From Monosiga brevicollis MX1 (Eukaryota > Opisthokonta > Choanoflagellata > Craspedida > Salpingoecidae), in the NCBI RefSeq assembly GCF_000002865.3, contig NW_001865041.1:392421-456420 (forward strand): a stretch of DNA of 64,000 nt, written 5' to 3'. Under the pieces are notes generated by a model. The model saw only the letters and a program-made list of their open reading frames with translations, searched no databases and was not told where the DNA came from. This document shows, one piece after another, positions 7,764-58,317 of the stretch (within the stretch, counting starts at the first letter, position 1; each line of letters opens with the position of its first letter). The position numbers and the translations under genes are program-made.

Positions 7764-10117
7764 ATGGATGACGGTGCGGCAACGGCACCCTCAGTGCCTC
7801 AGGTGTCCGTGGCTCCGCCTCAAGAAACCTCAGCACCTGGCGTAGGCTCAGTTGAGCCCGCCGTTCCTTCCAGTCCCGTGAATCGCGCACCCATTCCCGC
7901 AGTCCCGCCCATCCCCGAGGCGCCTGCCGCCGCATCGCACGCGCCCGCCACCCCACAAACCCCTCGCAACGCCCCCAGCACCGATAGCGATGCCCGTTCC
8001 TCCGCCAAGCGTTCAGCCAAGAACCGAAGCTCCCTCAAAGCTGATCGCGTCAAGGTATGATGACGTATCCTGACAGGCATCCTTTCCCCCCCCCCCCCCC
8101 CCGATATTCTCCGCTTTTCGTCCCTCACGCTCCTTCCTGGCCTGGAGGTACGCAGGTCTGCAAGATGATCGACCCACAACGGAATGGCAGCCGCGTGTGC
8201 AAAGTGTCCGATGCGTTGAACGCGTGCGGCATCACTGCCAGTCCCGCCGCTGTGAGCCACTGGCTTCGCGGCTGGCGCCATGGTGACCTCGTCGAGGCCA
8301 ACGGCTCCCTGCACCGCTCCAACCCGCTGCAGTTCCCAGAGCTCGACGAGCACATGCGCAAGTACGTCGAGGACCACATGATTGCGGCCAGCTTGGGGTT
8401 TGGCCAGAACTGGCGGTCCCTCAAGGAGGAGGCAGCGGCATTTGCCAAGGCTCGTTGCGAGCGTGGGGACGAGAAATACGCCAACTTTCAAAACTCCCAT
8501 GGCTGGCTTGCACGCTTCTGCAAGCGGTACGGTGTCAAGGCTCGCCTGCTTCGGGGTGTGAGCGGCCCCGCGCTGCCGGACAACGATGAAGTCCGCCCAG
8601 CCATGGAGACCTATCGCAGCAGCATCGACGAACTCGCACAGCAGCACAACGTCGATGCCGAGCGCATCTACTGTATGGACGAGTTTACGCTCTTTTACAA
8701 CCAGCCCCCGCAGGGGCTATACAGCCCACTGGAATTCCAGGAGCCCAGCGGTTCCAATCATATGATCGACGATGCCCGGTTGACCGGTCTCGCCTGCGTC
8801 AACGCCACCGGCAGCCATGCCATTCCGTGCGCTGCCGTGTCCAACCTCGAGAAACCGTACAGCTTCGTCTCGCTCCCCAAACTACCGGGGCTGCCTGTGC
8901 CCTACATGCCGCAAAGCCGGGGCTGGGTGGACGAACACGTGCTGCTGTGGTGGTTCACCGACGTTTTCCAGCCGGCCATCAAGGCCCGCCACGGTGAGCG
9001 GGACGTCATTCTCATCCTTGACAGTGCCCCTGTTCACGTCAAGACTGAGCTCCCGCTGCAAAAGCCTTCCTTCCCCAATGTGCACCTCTCCTTCCTGCCC
9101 GCCTGCTCTGTCAGCAACTTCCAGCCCCTGACCCGGGGCATCACGGCAGTCTTCAAGACGTTCTATAAGGCCATGCTACTGCAGCGCACCGTCACCTGCA
9201 TTCCCAACGGCGCGACCCTGCACCAATTGCGCTTCACGGCCGATCCCAGTGGTCACCCCCCTCCAGACAGCGGGCTCATCCATGGCGCCCGCGCCAGCAT
9301 GCTGGAGGCGCTCGAGCTGATGAACGAAGCCTGGTCTCGGCTCAGCCCAGACACCATCACTATCAGCTGGCGACAGGCCGATTGCCTCTCGCAGCGCCTG
9401 ATCGACACCATTCCCATCGCTACGGATGCGTTTACTTATCCAGCCAACAGCGTCGTGGCCCCGAACCAACTGGAAAGTGCTCGAGCCGAATTGACGGATG
9501 CCTTCGATCGTGTTCTTGCCGTTGCGCGGGAAGCCATGCAAGGCGTCGAGGCCTCAAACCAGGACCAGAATATCCTTACAACAGTCATGGTCCGCGAGGT
9601 GCTGGGTGCGCTGGCCTTGCGCGTAGGCCCAGATACCAGCAGCGTACAGATCCGTGAAGCTTTGCATTGTTATGCAACCATCGAAGATGATCCCCGACTG
9701 CTGCCCACCATTGCGGTCTCCATGATGCAGAGCCAGCCCGTGCCCACCCCCGCGCCCCCATATCCTCTCATGTCCAACGCGGTCGGATCGCAACGCGACC
9801 TCTCTCCCGCCGAAATTTTGGAGCGCGGTGCTGCCGACCTTTTGCGTATCGACCCCATTCGTGTCCTAGGCTGGCCCGAGGATGCTGTGGACGAATGGGA
9901 GGCGGCCAAGGCCTCTTTGCGAAAGCTGCAAGCCTTGGCTCAAGCCAAACTGGCACGTGGTGTCAACATGGTTGACCCCGTTGGTCCAGCCCAGGTTGAG
10001 CCCTCGGCCGTCCCCGTTACAGCTGCCTCTGCCACGACGACGGCGCCCCCTGCGGCAGCCGAATCCACTACAGCTGCCCCAACTCAGCAAGGGCCACCAG
10101 TAGTGCAAGCCCCGTAA
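7764..10117 (+). CDS. pogo/Tigger (CENP-B type) transposase-derived gene
   Basis: The protein, about 750 residues, derives from a pogo-family DNA transposase. Exon 1 (7764-8054) encodes a Pro/Ala/Ser-rich leader; exon 2 (8156-10117) encodes the rest, and the phases agree. An N-terminal helix-turn-helix of psq type (VSDALNACGITASPAAVSHW) is followed by a CENP-B-type DNA-binding half (YANFQNSHGWLARFCKRYGV). The DDE fold follows: first Asp in IYCMDEFTLFYN (residue 272), second in LILDSAPVHV (386). The third Asp, normally in QPLDQG, is Thr in QPLTRGI (423). The element is therefore expected to bind DNA but not transpose. The reading frame is intact, it has an intron, and the C-terminal tail is Ala/Pro/Thr-rich. 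I saw no terminal inverted repeats by eye. A domesticated host gene is the likeliest reading; CENP-B-like function is only a possibility. Confidence 0.85.
8086..8102. repeat. poly-C tract in intron
   Basis: A run of 17 C lies in the single intron (8055-8155) of the pogo-derived gene. It may serve as part of an extended pyrimidine tract, and it is prone to length error in sequencing. Confidence 0.9.
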
Positions 10118-17770: not shown

Positions 17771-20235
17771 ATGGCAGGGCGTCACGTCTGGCGGTTGCGG
17801 CGGACGGCGGTGGCTCTCTGGGCTCTCTTGGCCCTTGCTGCCTTGGGTGTGAGTCCAGTTGTGGGTACGGTGCCCGGCGATGTAGCGCTCTCTTTTATGG
17901 TCCCTACACTTGATGGGGCCAACTTTAGCTTCAATGCCGAGCAGCCGTTCAACTTTGCCACGCTATTTTTGACGGCCGAAGCCAGCGATCCGTTTACCCA
18001 CTACATGTGGGCTGATCCCGACTCCCTGGCCATGTTCCTGGTGCAAGCCCCGCCAGACACGCATTATGTGTTTTTGCCCAGCTTGGATACCCCACTTACG
18101 GCAATGATGGCTCACTGGAGCCAGGCCCTCGCCGACGCACCCATCTCTGAGGCACGCCGTGCTCGGTGGCAGCAGCAGGTTCAATGGGCCACGGCCCCGC
18201 CAGCCACCGTACCTGTGCTGGCCACGGCCCTGTCTGCCTTTTCCTCGCCCCGCACTACTCTCTCTGTGGGTACCGATTTGACCATATCTCGCCTCGACTG
18301 CCTCTACGCCTGGTGTAGCTGGCCAGTTGATGGTCAACAAGTCAACCTCAGCTACAACGCCGATCCCTGCAACACCAGTGCCCTTGCCAACTGGACTAGC
18401 CGCGGCATGCTCGTGCTCCTTGATGATCTCCTCAGGTGTGCGTGCAGCCAACCGCTCACCTCACTGCTTGTCCCATTCCCACGCTTGCTGGACCCGTCCC
18501 TCCACCTCTTGGCCCGTCATACACTCTTGGCTCATCAATCCCATGCCTGGTCTCTTGTCCTGGCGCCCCTAGCTGTTCACTGGATGCCTTGTTGATCAGC
18601 AGTGGCCAAGCCAACGTGGCTGCACTTGTGGTGGGCGAAGCATCCAATAGCAGCTACATTCGAGCCATCGGCGCACAAGTGGCCGCCCAAGCCTCACCGG
18701 GCGACATGATGGTCACTTCAGTGGCTTACGCCGATGCTCAACGCCTGCAGGCGCTGCTCGCTTCGGCCGGTGCATCGGGTATCCTCAACGCTACTTTCAA
18801 TACATCGCAGGAAGCAGGTCTTATGGTGGGCCTCGACGCACAGGGTCGATGGATTGAGCTGGGCTGGGAGAAATACCCCTATCTGATGATGCTGGGATGG
18901 CAGGCCCAGTACCAGCTTTACTTGCAAGACTTGGCTGCAAACTTATCCAAGCCTTCTTTCATCGTCCCCATCATGGACCGACAGACCATGCATCAAACAC
19001 CCGGGGCCGTGGCGACACTAACCATGCCCGATTATCGCGTGCTGCAGGCCACTTATGATACCCTCGAGCTAGATATGGCCCTCTCCTGCCCCGGCTCAAC
19101 AGATGCCGACTGTCCCGTCTGGGATCACACCGTGCAACTGTTTGTGTGCTGCAGCATTAACGGTACCAACACCTCTACTTGCGGAGCAGAGCTGGGTCGT
19201 TGGATCAGCCCGTTCCGGCGCCGCATCGGGCGCTGGCTGACACCCATCACCGAACTCTGGCCGCTGCTGGCCGCAGAGCGCTGCACGTTTACCATGCAAA
19301 CCGTAGCCTGGGCCTTGCCCTGGGTTGTGAGTGCCAACCTACGCTTCTCCAGCACCACGATTGGGCCCCCCACCAGCTCGTGGCCGACGACAGCCATCGC
19401 CCTGTTTCAAGGTGGTACCTTCAACCAGTCTTACAATGACCGTTCTTCGCTCACGGTGTCCATCCCGGGCAACTACCGTCGGGTCTTCCTGGAGGCGGTC
19501 ATCACCGGGCACGGCAGTGATGAGAATGGTTGGTGAATCAAGCCGGTCCCCGCCAACAGCACCCGACCAGTCGCATGATTGTATGTATTGCATGATCTTA
19601 TTGAAATTCGCTTTGTCTACGGATAGGCTGTGGTGAATTTTGTCCCACCAGCCACCACTTTATCATCAACGGCGACGAACATTATGTCAACTTCAGTGCG
19701 GCCGGCACGCCCTTTGGCTGTGCCGATCAAGCACGTTACGGCGCCGAGCCCAACGAGGTAAGCGTGTGTATGCAATCGTTTATCCGTTCATTGGCCTTGA
19801 TTTGAGGTGGTTATGCGCGTGGTCGCGTGCAGACTCATGTACGCGTGCCATGCCGGATACAACCAACACCCGATCCGGCCCGACAGCATGGGACTTGGTA
19901 TTACGGGCGGGATGGCTGGTGTGATGGCCAAAATGTTCGCCCTTGGGTTGTGGATGTCACCGATAGTATTGCCAAGGTTTGCATCGTCTTCTCGGCTTGA
20001 TTCGTGCACAGAGCCGTCCTCACCCCGCGCCTTCAAGAGCTCTTCCCTCTTCGCTTCCCTCATGTCGCGTTTTTCGGGCCGTTACCAACAGAATGCATCA
20101 TCGAACGTGACTGTCCAGTACTATGGCTGGTATCACGGACACACTCCGAATCCGCAACAGTCGCCAGGTCAGATTCTCATGGAAAGCCACCTCATTGTCT
20201 ACGCGACCCCGAGCGCACCTGCCCCTGACATGTGA
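17771..20235 (+). CDS. secreted PNGase F-like peptide-N-glycanase
   Basis: Bacterial PNGase F removes N-glycans from glycoproteins by cleaving the Asn side-chain amide. The predicted protein starts with a signal peptide (AVALWALLALAALGVSPVVG). The C-terminal half carries the PNGase F core: LEAVITGHGSDENGCGEFC (across an intron near 19530-19627), HHFIINGDEHYVNF, then HGTWYYGRDGWCDGQNVRPW (from 19887) followed by VVDVTD. A final beta strand ILMESHLIVYAT precedes TGA at 20233-20235. Many N-glycosylation sequons in the N-terminal half fit a secretory protein. Introns are near 18435-18585, 19528-19626, 19757-19886, 19977-20090. Family assignment rests on the GHG, GCGEFC and YGRDGWC motifs from memory. 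The N-terminal region of about 350 residues is not recognised. Confidence 0.75.
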
Positions 20236-47259: not shown

Positions 47260-49241
47260 CTATCGCACGTAGCCAAGTACAGGACCATCGGGTGTATCAC
47301 AGGGAAGGTCCAAGCTGTGTGCATAGCCACCTTGAGGTGTCTTACACCGATAAAGGCCACGCAGCGTTTCGCCACCGCGCTGCTGGGCAATAAAGCCGAG
47401 AGTAGATTCGACCGCGCCGTCGCCATCACAGTTTGGATCCGTCGAGATGTGGTGGTGCGTTTGTTGTGGCTCATTGCAACGGTATAGGGGGATGGTATTG
47501 GGCAGTTGCTGGTTGTACAGAATGAAAGGGCCGTTGCGGCCGTCCGTCAGACTTGTGTCCACGCAAAAGACGGACGGGCCAGAGATGGGCGAGCAGTTCT
47601 CGGCCCAGCCATCTGTCTCGAGCGCGCTGACCTCAGCTGCGTTTGTGGTCAGCACCGTGTCGTACACGTTGCCTGATGCGTGGCTCAGAGACCAGACGTT
47701 GGCGAACACCTCCTTGTCCGCACGCGTGCAGCACAAGTCGGTCGGGGCAGCAGTGCAGTTGAGGCCTGCCTTGTAGAGGGCCACGCAGGCACTGGCCACG
47801 CGATACACGGTATCGCCACCCTCCACAGTGGGTTCCATGTCGCGGGAGAACTCACTTGCATAAGTGTCCACCCACACCACATCGCGTTGCGAGTCGTTGG
47901 GCAAGCCCATGTTAAAGGCAATCTTGGACGACGAAACGGGCTGCTGTCGCCCGCCAATGTGCTCATTGAAAGAGCTGAGAAAGAGGTGGGGTGGGCGAAG
48001 GTCCAGCACTCGCTCAAAGAGGCGGGCCACGGTCAGGCCACGTAGGTGACCTGGGTTGGCAAAGGGCAAGGCTGATTGAGAGACCATGTAAGCGCCCGAT
48101 GCCGAAATCTCAGTGATGCCACCCGTTGCAGGATCGAGGGTGGGGCGTTGGTTGCACGCGGGCTCGCCGACGATGGATGTCGTGTACGATGTTCCATCTG
48201 TGCTGGAGACGCAAGGCGAGAAAAAACCCCACGTGCCGGCCTCGTAATCAGCGGGTCCAAACAAGGCCCAGAGATTGATGGTGGTGACGTCGTTGCGCCC
48301 ACCATTGGCAGCGATGGCTGCCGCCACGCCCTCATCATAGCAGTTGGGGTTCTTGGGAATAGCCACTACCTTCTTGCCGTTCTGTGCAAGGGGCCGTACA
48401 GATCATGTCGGGCCATGCCAATGAGGGGTCAAACGGCCGTTGTCACGGGGCGCAGATGGGCGAACACAGGCCCCGGCAGCGTTGATGCCTCCGTGATGAC
48501 CAGGGATGAACTGACCTGCTGATACACGAGGGATGCATAGGAGGCGTTGTTGTAGAGCTTGTCCAGCAAGACTTGCCACGTATTACTGCCGGCTGGGGAG
48601 CAGGGCCAGACAGCAATGGCAGGAGTGGAGATGTTTTGCTGACGCAGCTTGTACCACTCCTCAAAGAGCACCTGTGCCAGCAAGGCCAATCAGTGTGCCG
48701 GTGCGAGTGACTGAGACCAGAGCCAGACATGGTGTGGTAACAGCAACACATTTGTTCGCAAAGAAGGCGGGGGGTTGGTAGCACTGACTTCGGTGGGGCG
48801 GATCACGCTAATGTCGGTACTGGTTGTGTTGGTGGGCCAATTCGTAACATCGACCATGACATAGTCGATGCCCATGTCCACGAGAAGCTTGGCATGGGCG
48901 GTTGCCGTTTGAGTGATGTTCGGGCAGTCAGGGACAAGGCCCGGTTCTCCAGCGCGGGCGCGGTAGAGGCAGTAAAAGCCCAGCGCAGGTTCAACGTTGT
49001 AAATGTCTGAGGAAATGTTGTATGGGCCGTACACGTCGTTCAGGTCTTGCGCTCCATTGGAACGAATCACCCGTTCAGTGGTCAGTTGGGTACCATGCAT
49101 GGCTGCAACCTGCTGCATGGCCTGCGCTGCCGTCGTGTGCCAGACTTCATAGAGGATGCCAACATCGGCAGCAACCAAAGCCGGGACCAAGGCCAGGGCC
49201 ACAAACACGGCCAAGCGGGCACCAAAGGCGTTTACAGACAT
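47260..49241 (-). CDS. secreted GH99-like (TIM-barrel) protein
   Basis: A signal peptide (MSVNAFGARLAVFVALALVP, ending at LVAA) leads into DVGILYEVWHTT. The body has GFYCLYRARAGEPG, HAKLLVDMGIDYVMVDVTNW, IRPTEV then VLFEEWYKLRQQNISTPAIA, and INLWALFGPADYEAGTWGFF. This layout (VD.TN, then RPTEVLFEEW) resembles GH71/GH99-like barrel proteins; I could not place catalytic residues. The C-terminus has two copies of a short Cys-containing repeat (PLYRCNEPQQTHHHISTDPN and LYRCKTPQGGYAHSLDLPC), each ending in a LGF or LGY turn. Cys-rich, with several sequons. Stop TAG at 47260-47262. The first ATG (49239-49241) lies within the last codons of the upstream ABITRAM gene. Introns are near 48690-48790 and 48390-48525. 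Function is uncertain. Confidence 0.65.
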
Positions 49242-50073
49242 GCTGGCGGGACTTGCTCGTAGGCGGCGGGAAAGGCGTCAAGCTCAGTGGAGGCACGTCG
49301 CAGCTCCTTGGGATTTAGAACAAGAACAGCGACAAAGCCCCGTTCAAAAGGCTGCGATACCAACATCGGCACGGGACACAGGACGAGATTTTATTACGTG
49401 AGGCAGCTGGTCCGAGCACAGAGGAGGCACTTGCGCGCGCAAGGTCAAGCAAAGCATACGTGCGATTTGAGCAATTGAGGGTTTTCAACGAGGATGGTAT
49501 TGATGTCGACTAGTTTGCCCGGACACGGGGAGGCAACGGTGACCTCTTCCCCGGAGGCGAGGCGGATGAGACCGAGGGGATCGCCGCGCTTGATTTGTTG
49601 TGCGCCGCGCTTGTTCTTGCCCGAGACGCTGTTGCTGGCGCGATCAGGAAACCCGGGGCACTTGTAGCTAAAGCTAACAATGGTCTCACTTTGCACGCGA
49701 TGATCTGGGGTGATGCCAATCAATGCGATGCTACGCGGGGGAGGTACACAGTCGTCAGTTCCCGCACCGCTATACTACTGCCAGCAGCAACTCACGCCGC
49801 AACCGAGGCGAAGCAGCACTAACTCGTTGAATTGAAGCAACAGATATTCCTGGCACCCGGTGCGACCGTCGTAGTCTTCAAGCCCAAAACCAATACCAGG
49901 CAGCGATGTTGTGAGTGAGGGTGAAACGCCAGCCCAGGGCATGAGCGGCAAACACAATCGACGACAAGCAGCAAACCTTTCTGAAGATAACGCTGCTTGG
50001 AAGAGCGCAGGTAAAGCGGAGTGGGTTTCTCCAAGGGCACATCAACCGGGGCAACATCCATAGGAGGGGGCAT
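49232..50073 (-). CDS. ABITRAM: ABITRAM / Simiate (FAM206) homolog
   Basis: ABITRAM is a small conserved eukaryotic protein linked in neurons to actin branching and nuclear speckles; its biochemical role is poorly known. Exons on the minus strand: MPPPMDVAPVDVPLEKPTPL (ATG 50071-50073); QEYLLLQFNELVLLRL; then VSFSYKCPGFP and VSGKNKRGAQQIKRGDPLGL, LASGEEVTVASPCPGKLVDI, ENPQLLKSH; and a last exon 49351-49232 (120 nt, phase 0) encoding PFERGFVAVLVLNPKEL ... VPPACL. The segments match human VSGKFKRGAQ, DGEEYTVSSCVRGRLMEV and EGYIAVVLPK in order. The stop TAA is at 49232-49234, so the coding end overlaps the ATG and next codons of the GH99-like gene by 10 nt in another frame. Divergent from the kinesin gene. 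Confidence 0.88.
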
Positions 50074-54829: not shown

Positions 54830-55453
54830 AAAAGCGATTCGACGTGGTATATTGCCCAACCTTTTGTTTCAATCCCCTTTAACTGTCTGATCCTTGTCGA
54901 GTCGACGTCTTGTACTGAGTTACAATCTTGTCTGGATGAGAATGACATTGTATTCAAGTGGTCAAGCCTGTGCTTGCTCTCACGTCATCTTCATTCGGGG
55001 AGGGTAACGCGTGTTCCTTCCTTTGTGCCAACAAGCGAAGCAGCCGCGTTGCTCAATAATCGATTTCAATTTTGACAAGACGTGGGCATTTCATTTCTAC
55101 AACCAGCCACTGACCATGGTTTTCAGCTTTCTTGACTCAACTAAGAGACGACAGAATGGGCTGGCACAGAATTTAAGACAATTCAACCCCAGCGACCAGC
55201 CTTGTCGGAGCAGATTCGTTCACGCATAAGGCTAGTCTCCGTGCTGGAGTGGGTGAACTCAGGGCCAAGGCTGTTGCAGGATCCAAGTCCAACTGGTGCA
55301 GATACCCACACGGAGGACAGGGCACATGCGGAAAAGGCACGGCAATGGAGTTGACTGCACAGACAAGGACGTCGAATGGGTCGAGGCATGCCAGTCTTGG
55401 GCTTGCGACAACAATGGCTGTGATAGTGTGGGCCGCGCAGCGGCGGCATGCAA
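54830..55453. other. intergenic between convergent kinesin and mS38
   Basis: No gene is seen in this 624-bp gap; it holds both 3' flanks. Confidence 0.4.
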
Positions 55454-56445
55454 CTACTTGTATTTCTTCAAGACGCTGCGCATTTTCTTGCGCCACTTCT
55501 TGTATTTGTGACGCTTCATCTTTCGCCTCCGCTTCTTCAGCACCGAGCTGGCTTGGATGGTTCGATCATCCAGATCAGCCGTTTCGGGCTCGACCATGGT
55601 TGACGGAGCAGGTGCAGCAAGGCGATGCTCAGCGTCCAAGCTGGCTTCTTCGGCTTGAAGAACCACCTGGTGTTGCAGCTGAAACGAGGGCATGAGGTGC
55701 TCTGCCTCCTGGTTCCACGCTTGTTCATAGCGGCGACGGTCCAAGTCGCAAGCCAGGCGCAAGGGCTGATCAGTCTTGCTCAGGAGGTAGGGGGGCAATT
55801 CCGTCGGTGCGCCTTCAGGCTCGACCGCGTCGAAGAAATCATACGAGCGAGGTGCTGTTTGCATGTTGATAACAGCAGCCAGGCGAGAGACGGGCTGCAG
55901 GTTGCTTCGAGTCACCTCGGGTACTTGGTGATGCCAGCTACGATGCAAAGCTGCAAATCGCGTGGCCAAGGTCGCGGGGCCAGTCGCTAAGGGACATCAT
56001 GGTTCACAGGATGAGTGCGCCGCATGGTCGTGCCGAAAAAGATAAACGAAGGATGAGGCAGAAAAAAAAAAAAAAAAAGCAAAAGCAACCAGTGTTGTAA
56101 AGTGTGCATGCCACCGCAGCCGACAGAGCCTTTCCCCCCACGAAGCGTAAAGAAGTGGAATAAAGATGAAGTTGGGAGCCAAGGCTTCAAAACAAACGGG
56201 GATGCGACCCGAGCGGAGCAAACTGATGTGCAAAAGGCGCCACCCCCGAATGGCGGGCAAACGGGTGTAGCAGTTGATCCGAAAACGCGTTGAAAAATCA
56301 AAACACTCTTGCTGACAGAAGAAAAACAAAATACTATATGAAATCAATTCACCAAAGACCTACCCTGATTACCAAGACCAAGACCACGACGGGCGGCGGC
56401 GCGGCCGGCGGCTGCCAGTCCCGCACTCAACGCCGTCATCGCCAT
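55454..56445 (-). CDS. AURKAIP1: mitochondrial ribosomal protein mS38 (AURKAIP1)
   Basis: mS38 is a small-subunit mitoribosomal protein whose basic C-terminal helix threads into the rRNA (DUF1713/COX24 family). The hallmark is the end of the protein: SSVLKKRRRKMKRHKYKKWR, then KKMRSVLKKYK and TAG at 55454-55456. The main exon (55986-55454) lacks an in-frame ATG. An upstream exon (56445-56364) supplies MAMTALSAGLAAAGRAAARR and GLGLGNQ, an Ala/Arg-rich leader without acidic residues that looks like a mitochondrial targeting sequence. It joins with phase 1 to give a 204-residue protein, an exact fit (82 + 533 nt). Family membership is firm from the C-terminus; the first exon is an inference from phase and targeting character. 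Confidence 0.85.
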
Positions 56446-56749
56446 CTCCTCTGGTGGAAAAAAGGAGAGAGAACAAAACAAAAAGGTGCCACGTTCTGGT
56501 CCCGATAGTGTGTTGTTATTCACACTTTGACATACCCAAGTCTTCCTTTCTTTTTTTTTCTTTTTCTTCACACAAGGGGATAGAGAGAGAAAATTTATGA
56601 TGAGGAGCTCATGAAAGCTTTACATCCGGTGTCGGTCTACGAGAGGAAGTTTGAGTTATGGGGACATGTGACAAGAGGCAGCTGGACGGGTTCAATTTAA
56701 TTCAATGGACAAGGCAGACAAGAGGTGGCATCGTGTTGTGGCGGCTTGT
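56446..56749. other. intergenic, mS38 promoter side
   Basis: A 304-bp gap between two minus-strand genes, with no gene seen. It should contain the mS38 promoter and the 3' flank of the downstream SDR; a T-rich tract lies near 56548-56570. Confidence 0.4.
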
Positions 56750-58317
56750 TTAGACGAGGTAGCCCGTGGGGAAGTTTTTGAGTTCAATCTCGGCTTCAAC
56801 GGCGTCACGGAGGAGGTCCAGGGTGGGGGCAGGATGCTTGTATTCAAAACCAAGGGCCTCAATCTTGCTGCCGTCGACCGCGAGGCTGTTGTTGTAGAGA
56901 AGCTCTTTGTCCAAATACGGGGTCAAAGGCGTGTTGCCGATGTCGGCGTCGACACACATGCGTGACCAAGGCTCCATGTGCTTCTCGTTGGAGGTTTCAA
57001 CGACGGCAGACATGTTGAGGCGGGCCATGTTGGACAGGGTGCTGCCGACAAAGCCGACCTCGATGCCAAAGAGCTGGGCCAAGAGATCGGCCACGCTACC
57101 CTGTGTAGAGTTGGCTTTGTCTGCCAGATTGTAAACCTCGCCCTTGACACCACGCTCCGCGATGGTCCAGAGGGCCGCGGCCACGTCGCTGACGTGGACG
57201 GTGTTAATGCAAAGCTTATCCGACCAGAGAAACTTCATCGTCTCGCCCAGCTTTTTGTAGACGGCAGCCGTGATGAGGCGAGGCATGAGTCCTTGGCGAT
57301 CACTGACGCCGTAGACGTTGGCCGGCCGTACAATACAGTAGTCCAGGCTGCAGGCAGAGTTCGGATTGTCAGGACAGGCTTGGTGTGAGTCATAATGCTC
57401 AAAAAGACTTTGTGCCGTGCGGCGGCGCTGGGTCAGCAGAAGGGTTATAAGCGCGAGCTTGACCATGAAAACTCACCCATCAATGGCCTTGAGCTCGTTC
57501 TCAACTGCCAGCTTCTTTTCGGCCAAAGCGGTCCACGGTTTGACCTTACCGTCTTCCGCCGATGCTTTCTGTGTGGGAGCAAGATTGAAGTGCGGGAGCA
57601 GGCAGCACACGGGCATCAGCAAGTGGCACAACTAAAAAGATCGCGTTTACTGGCCAAAGCGCACCCCACCTTGTCAGCGGCGTAGACCTGCGCGGTAGAG
57701 AGCTCGATGAAGCGACGGCAGCCGCTCTGGGCAGCGGCACGAGCACATTTGACCGAGAGATCGAAGACTGATTCTTGATAGACCTCGGGGGCCTGGCCGT
57801 ACGTCGTGAGGCCCGCGCAATTGAAAACAAAATCAAAAGCACCACCGTCACGCGCAAAGGCCTTTTGAATGGTGGCATCGCGGGTCAAATTGCCTTGCTG
57901 AAAGTCGACCTTTTCAAAGGCGGCTTGTTGGCGAGCCGTCAGATACCTAGACGAGCGCATCGTTCAAGCCAGGCGTGAGTCGTCATGGCGCAACAGCACA
58001 CGGTCATATGAGCAGGACAGGGGAGCAAGCCAGCTCACGCCGTCTGCAGGATGGCTTTGTCGACAACGCGGATGACATCAGCTAGGTTATTCTCCACCAG
58101 ATAAACCACGAGGTTGCGTCCGATAAAACCGGCACCTGTTCTCCGCCCGCCAGATCGAAAGCAAGCTTCGGTGAGGGAAAACAAAAATGGGCAAGGCAAG
58201 ATTGCCTGGGTTTGGGTCCAGGACGGGAGGGCTTGGGCGTGGAAGGAGAGAGAGAGGGAGAGAGAGAGCAAGAAGAGATCAATGCGACTGACCGCCGAGA
58301 ACAAGGGCACTGGGCAT
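56750..58317 (-). CDS. extended SDR (NAD-dependent epimerase-like), catalytic Tyr missing
   Basis: An extended short-chain dehydrogenase of the epimerase / 3-beta-HSD type. Exon 1 starts MPSALVLGG at 58317. The next exon gives GTGAGFIGRNLVVYLVENNL, the Rossmann glycine motif, then YLTARQQAAFEKVDFQQGNL, FDFVFNCAGLTTYG and FIELSTAQVYAADK. In the following exon the usual YxxxK position reads KPWTALAEKKLAVENELK: the segment aligns with family sequences that have KYKLQAE there, but the Tyr is Lys. After an intron come LDYCIVRPANVYGVSDRQGL and INTVHVSDVAAALWTIAERG. The end NFPTGYLV precedes TAA 56750-56752. The fold is intact; oxidoreductase activity by the standard mechanism is doubtful. Substrate unknown. 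Confidence 0.82.

Follow-up and report, generated by a model that had tools for sequence, protein, structure and literature searches.

A 10-nt same-strand coding overlap between an ABITRAM-like gene and a gene for a predicted secreted protein in Monosiga brevicollis

Two gene models with ten coding nucleotides in common

The window analysed in this study is a 64,000-nt stretch of the Monosiga brevicollis MX1 contig NW_001865041.1 (positions 392,421 to 456,420 of the forward strand), and the coordinates below are window positions unless stated otherwise. Two spliced gene models were assembled by hand from GT-AG sites on its minus strand. The first, an ABITRAM-like gene with four exons and a 540-nt ORF encoding 179 aa, consists of exon 1 at 49977..50073 (start codon 50073-50071, context ATCAAAGC-ATG-CC), exon 2 at 49824..49875, exon 3 at 49460..49730, and the last exon at 49232..49351. 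Its minus-strand 3' end reads GCA TGT CTG TAA in the ABITRAM frame and finishes at 49232, the TAA occupying 49234-49232. The second, a gene for a predicted secreted protein with three exons and a 1731-nt ORF encoding 576 aa, consists of exon 1 at 48789..49241 (start codon 49241-49239), exon 2 at 48516..48671, and exon 3 at 47260..48381 (stop codon 47262-47260). All introns are GT-AG introns of 101, 93, and 108 nt in the ABITRAM-like gene and of 117 and 134 nt in the secreted-protein gene, which are usual lengths (median of the predicted introns, 117 nt). In these spliced models, 10 nt of the minus strand (49232..49241, sequence ATGTCTGTAA) are common to both coding sequences and are read in different frames. 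Judged by the spliced models and the frame ends, the initial annotation had placed both reading frames and their same-strand overlap correctly, with the right coordinates, and the overlap of two coding sequences is confirmed.

The models were compared with the output of a purpose-built gene finder, which combines a three-periodic Markov coding model with splice and start matrices, is blind to proteins, and used 264 kb for training (the window and 20 tiles of the same contig). Both genes were returned with identical coordinates for every exon at six of eight settings. At a gene cost of 14, the two genes were fused through a 95-nt intron; at a gene cost of 3, the overlap was kept and ABITRAM was split.

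The 10-nt overlap taken alone is weak evidence, because ATGs near predicted stops are unremarkable: 11 ATGs opening at least 60 codons fall within 40 nt of the 74 predicted stops, the ATG of the present pair among them. This pair is lifted above the others by its signal peptide, coding content, and start context, which are described below, and by the 576-aa, three-exon gene that follows. A sequencing error merging both genes into one was judged unlikely, since the second frame opens with a predicted signal peptide and the first stops soon after its domain match.

The first protein matched PF01597 (GCV_H) at residues 89-153 (E 2.1e-6; 28.1 bits against a gathering score of 22.2). We take this family to include ABITRAM/Simiate; the ABITRAM label is likely rather than proved. 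The 13 PDB sequences listed as matches were all GcvH, with E from 0.0038 to 0.57. A true GcvH identity was rejected with the NCBIfam gcvH model, which scored 19.8 bits against a cut-off of 115.85. The last exon had originally been placed by homology. The PF01597 match does cross the exon 3/4 junction, and the weak PDB matches extend to residue 166, but the final 13 or so residues before the stop codon have no homology support.

For the second protein, the earlier impression of a "GH99-like" enzyme is unproved and gained no support from Pfam, NCBIfam, or PDB: no glycoside hydrolase family matched at E up to 10 in the Pfam and NCBIfam scan, which drops most matches above about E 0.1, and no PDB match was obtained. 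A stretch in exon 3, near the C-terminus, resembled PF18885 (DUF5648) at E 0.017, under the cut-off, and two further Pfam/NCBIfam matches were weaker and at chance level. Exon 3, folded alone with a view to a TIM-barrel fold, gave a pLDDT of 32.7. Several N-glycosylation sequons can be read in the protein sequence. No relatives were detected in GTDB or viral contigs by single-protein scans, which reach close relatives only, or in plasmids at E up to 1, and no second copy of this gene was found in the genome of M. brevicollis itself (39.47 Mb, 57 contigs). A gene with a match to the GxGYxYP putative glycoside hydrolase family (E 1.7e-60) was observed elsewhere, in tile L014 (6610-8049, plus strand); it is preceded on the same strand by a gap of 10,780 nt in which N occurs. 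Another observation within the window was a match to the peptide-N-glycosidase F N-terminal domain at 18601-19527 on the plus strand (E 3.2e-15). This domain is known mainly from bacteria.

Start codons and AUG content of the pair

The initial annotation placed a signal peptide at the second ATG. The predicted signal peptide is a good one of 25 residues (49167..49241, minus strand), and its simple signal-peptide score was equalled by 19 of the 3618 other ATGs with 35 open codons (0.5%). Of 20000 residue shuffles, 57 scored as high, as did 3 of the 57 predicted starts, a count that includes the second gene's own start. In the second frame, the 97 nt that begin the secreted-protein gene had a coding log-odds of +10.2. 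Furthermore, the context of this start (CCGCCAGC-ATG) is near consensus and ranks at the 60th percentile in a set of 43 predicted starts from which both genes of the pair were excluded.

Counted from the start of the ABITRAM-like gene, the ATGs of the spliced mRNA lie at nt 0, 12, 16, and 31 (AUG1 to AUG4), followed only at nt 530 by the start of the second gene. AUG1 stands at the 16th percentile of the same 43 start contexts and AUG2-4 stand below all of them, a comparison that is partly circular because the predicted starts were chosen in part by the same model. AUG1 bears A at -3, so that most ribosomes should initiate there. AUG3 (50057) and AUG4 (50042) open a short +1-frame ORF of 47 and 42 codons, respectively (49720..50057, minus strand, spliced), which stops at nt 160, 370 nt before the AUG of the second gene.

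The AUG-free stretch between AUG4 and the second gene (49242..50039, minus strand) amounts to 496 nt after removal of the three introns. We compared it with 73 other predicted coding sequences (127.7 kb), of which 65 are at least 540 nt long. Their longest AUG-free run was 408 nt, so that none of the 73 reaches 496 nt, and none of 397 windows of 496 nt was AUG-free (mean, 8.7 AUGs per window). This measure was picked after the pattern had been noticed. The number of AUGs between the two starts is independent of having seen the gap: it was 3, whereas 537 windows of coding sequence averaged 9.3 and 8 of these windows had 3 or fewer. Likewise, 2 of the 65 stretches formed by the first 530 nt were as AUG-poor as that of ABITRAM. 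At the rate of 1.77 ATGs per 100 nt found in the coding sequences, 3 or 4 ATGs in 530 nt correspond to an observed/expected ratio of 0.32 or 0.43.

Much of this depletion reflects a scarcity of methionine in the ABITRAM-like protein. Windows of 165 codons free of methionine were found in 22 of 798 cases, and Met-free runs of at least 174 residues in 17 of the 73 other predicted proteins. The Met-free windows of other genes still hold 2 to 11 ATGs, and out-of-frame ATGs were missing in 4 of the 798 windows. Given the protein, the probability of the AUG-free run was 0.031 by synonymous shuffling and 0.038 by resampling of codon usage, and that of the part in exons 1-3 was 0.11. The total number of ATGs in ABITRAM is ordinary (5, against a shuffle mean of 5.7); only their position is unusual. 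The three ABITRAM introns, 302 nt in all and not encountered by scanning ribosomes, contain 3 ATGs, two of them in intron 3.

Sequences around predicted starts and stops were also surveyed. Upstream of predicted starts, CCGCCA ranked first among the hexamers over-represented within 150 nt; it occurred there in 13 of 74 genes against 3.1 expected, a weak enrichment. In the 150 nt downstream of the 74 predicted stops, ATCGAT and TCGATT were weakly enriched (each in 10 genes, where 1.6 and 2.5, respectively, were expected), and AATAAA was not among the 28 hexamers listed. Scans of the window for tRNAs and Rfam families found nothing.

Strand arrangement of neighbouring genes

The strand pattern was taken from the gene finder and varies with its costs. 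At the neutral cost (8/8, maximum intron 700), adjacent predicted genes formed 15 same-strand, 32 convergent, and 33 divergent pairs; with equal costs and a maximum intron of 400, the counts were 19, 33, and 34, and at a gene cost of 14 they were 3, 30, and 31, respectively. Same-strand pairs climbed to 71 of 152 at a gene cost of 5 and to 192 of 284 at a gene cost of 3, with many short predictions. Strand runs based on long ORFs alone (33 runs for 93 ORFs) neither prove nor disprove alternation, because one long gene can contribute several ORFs.

The Pfam scan covered 69 of the 73 longest listed exons and one extra kinesin exon; two of the four exons outside this exon-wise run belong to the ABITRAM pair, which was scanned whole. 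Families were assigned to 36 of those genes and to ABITRAM. In a hand count from which the ABITRAM pair was excluded, both members had a Pfam family in 17 adjacent pairs, and 14 of these lay on opposite strands. The three same-strand pairs were 3-beta-HSD with a Tc5-like transposase, a PNGase-like gene with DNA polymerase B, and an epimerase with COX24_C. A transposase with Tc5-like HTH and DDE regions occupies a single long open frame of the window (8156-10114, plus strand). The COX24_C gene, which we take to be mS38-like, follows the epimerase-like gene on the same strand (55183-56750, minus strand); its predicted 12-nt first exon is probably wrong, and its start is likely at 56445. The distance from the epimerase stop to the mS38-like gene start is about 304 nt, which leaves room for a gene end and a promoter.

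Predicted neighbour gaps are short, with medians of 161-191 nt at gene costs of 14 and 8 (contig positions 192421-456420). Of the 17 same-strand pairs listed, no other than the ABITRAM pair overlaps, though small gaps of 3 to 71 nt occur in seven cases. Those between predicted genes of at least 120 aa include 18, 35, 54, and 71 nt, the 18-nt gap probably reflecting a wrong start. The ABITRAM pair is flanked by two plus-strand genes. Because neighbours mostly alternate strands, the pair resembles a single unit; it has to be counted as one to fit the alternation, which is suggestive and not proof. Monosiga brevicollis is named among a few species with less random gene orientation in a published survey (PMC2871058), and the mostly alternating strands seen here are in keeping with it.

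Possible modes of expression of the pair

We tentatively favour, at not quite even confidence, the reading that the two genes are genuine and are carried at least partly on one bicistronic mRNA, running from the ABITRAM promoter to beyond the secreted-protein gene. A dicistronic mRNA was one of the three mechanisms named by the initial annotation, which left out leaky scanning and a splice-made fusion; it gains support from the AUG depletion, the weak ORF1 start context, and the strand pattern. With so few start signals before the second gene, one mRNA may yield both proteins. Both models, their 10-nt overlap, the start contexts, and the AUG desert are read from the sequence, and from them we infer the following scanning steps. 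A single mRNA would have its 5' end at the ABITRAM promoter and its 3' end after the secreted-protein gene. Part of the scanning 40S subunits would bypass the poor-context AUGs at nt 0, 12, 16, and 31. Initiation at the +1-frame AUGs would give a peptide of 42-47 codons ending at the nt 160 stop, after which 40S subunits could resume scanning across 370 AUG-free nt. By both routes the next AUG would be that at nt 530, where the near-consensus context would allow the secreted protein to be initiated. Since leaky scanning needs no spacer, the overlap itself could be a by-product of compaction. Points against the bicistronic reading are the A at -3 of AUG1, the probabilities of 0.031 and 0.038 given the protein, and the lack of an evident functional link between the two proteins.

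The strongest alternative, possible though less probable, is an internal promoter in exon 3, intron 3, or exon 4 of ABITRAM, with the ABITRAM mRNA ending within or after the second gene and the overlap arising as a side effect of compaction. Predicted divergent gaps are short (medians of 161-300 nt over the eight settings, and of 161-172 nt at three of them), so that a promoter may fit into intron 3 and exon 4 (218 nt), and the part of exon 4 upstream of 49241 is free of ATG. However, the AUG desert spans the spliced exons 1-4, far more than a leader in exon 4 would need, whereas intron 3 has 2 ATGs. This objection is softened by the probability, already given, that exons 1-3 alone are AUG-free. 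The second gene would also be a same-strand neighbour with no spacer at all, whereas the other same-strand gaps between genes of at least 120 aa measure at least 18 nt.

A fusion made by splicing is improbable. Here a candidate 95-nt intron (49145..49239, minus strand; donor score 4.56, acceptor score 2.67) would join ABITRAM to the second protein without its signal peptide, as the sole product or as an alternative isoform. The GT-AG pair is frame-compatible. Its donor equals the median of 725 predicted donors, and the acceptor lies between the 10th and 25th percentile of a set of predicted acceptors that includes it. The gene finder chose this intron at a gene cost of 14, whereas two-gene models win at the neutral cost. 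A pair equally good or better occurs at 8.6% of 3000 random positions, while the signal peptide that would be lost is equalled at 0.5% of open ATGs. As read from the sequence, the mature protein would also lose DVGILYEV at its start, and a protein bearing several N-glycosylation sequons would stay in the cytosol. The fusion is thus a possible isoform and not the favoured main product. It would resemble MOCS1 (MOCS1A/B), for which alternative splicing giving one protein or a fusion is described (PMC9607355).

Coupled termination-reinitiation, in which ribosomes finishing at the ABITRAM TAA would move 7 nt backwards onto the overlapping AUG, was also proposed in the initial annotation and has lost ground. 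On the putative single mRNA, the overlap of stop and start spans 10 nt. The stop and start codons of calicivirus and influenza B also overlap; unlike in these TURBS-type systems, no UGGGA motif occurs in the final 200 nt of the ABITRAM CDS. Coupling without the motif is reported for some human mRNAs, but the downstream product was about 82-fold lower in the one human case that was quantified (PMC5972666). Furthermore, this mechanism leaves the AUG depletion unexplained, and we regard it as very unlikely. A spliced leader or a 5' UTR intron, by which the second-gene mRNA would be spliced onto the CAG before C-ATG, is the least credible of all: the AG directly preceding C-ATG, the one covered by the acceptor test, scored 0.94, whereas the 1st percentile of predicted acceptors is 0.97, and no report of trans-splicing in choanoflagellates was found among the literature titles listed.

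A close parallel to the favoured bicistronic reading is found in green algae (Chlamydomonas and Auxenochlorella), whose bicistronic genes are described as having an ORF1 shorter than ORF2, a weak ORF1 Kozak context, and AUG depletion, with median observed/expected ATG ratios of 0.49 and 0.43 over all sequence before ORF2, and with overlapping stop and start codons at some loci of A. protothecoides (PMC11291117). The present pair likewise has two complete same-strand ORFs with negative spacing, an ORF1 of 540 nt ahead of an ORF2 of 1731 nt, an ORF1 start context that is weak by the partly circular percentile above, and an AUG pattern before ORF2 that corresponds to the leaky-scanning signature as published there. 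The comparison of ATG ratios is rough, because the published values are derived from base composition and take in the 5' UTR as well. The pair differs from the algal genes in its lineage, in the four AUGs near the ORF1 start, and in being known from sequence alone.

In humans, MOCS2A and MOCS2B are reported to overlap by 77 bp out of frame on the same strand and to be translated from one mRNA by leaky scanning (PMC9607355); these two are subunits of one enzyme, whereas the products of the ABITRAM pair look unrelated and the overlap is 10 nt. The initial annotation considered same-strand coding overlaps rare in eukaryotic nuclear genomes. Under-representation reported for five metazoan genomes (PMC2330155) agrees with this, but such overlaps are not unheard of: FlyBase is described as holding 18 Drosophila gene pairs with out-of-frame (multiphasic) coding overlap, most of them below 40 nt, and polycistronic transcripts carry 26 of the 36 genes (PMC4528330). 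The Drosophila pairs, in contrast to ours, are backed by transcripts. Titles and openings of abstracts listed in literature searches yielded no report of a bicistronic or overlapping choanoflagellate gene, and a mention inside the texts is possible. Same-strand overlap on one mRNA is accordingly of a known kind, and the novelty would lie in its occurrence in a close relative of animals, with the scanning signature within ORF1.

If one mRNA serves both genes, the overlap would be explained without new machinery, and leaky scanning on bicistronic mRNAs would reach into a lineage closely related to animals. We further suggest, with more doubt than for the shared mRNA itself, that leaky scanning in this choanoflagellate may allow one nuclear mRNA, whose ORF1 is kept nearly AUG-free, to encode both a cytosolic regulator and a secreted protein, and that in this genome of mostly strand-alternating transcription units the few abutting same-strand pairs may be hidden bicistronic units that could be listed by AUG depletion alone.
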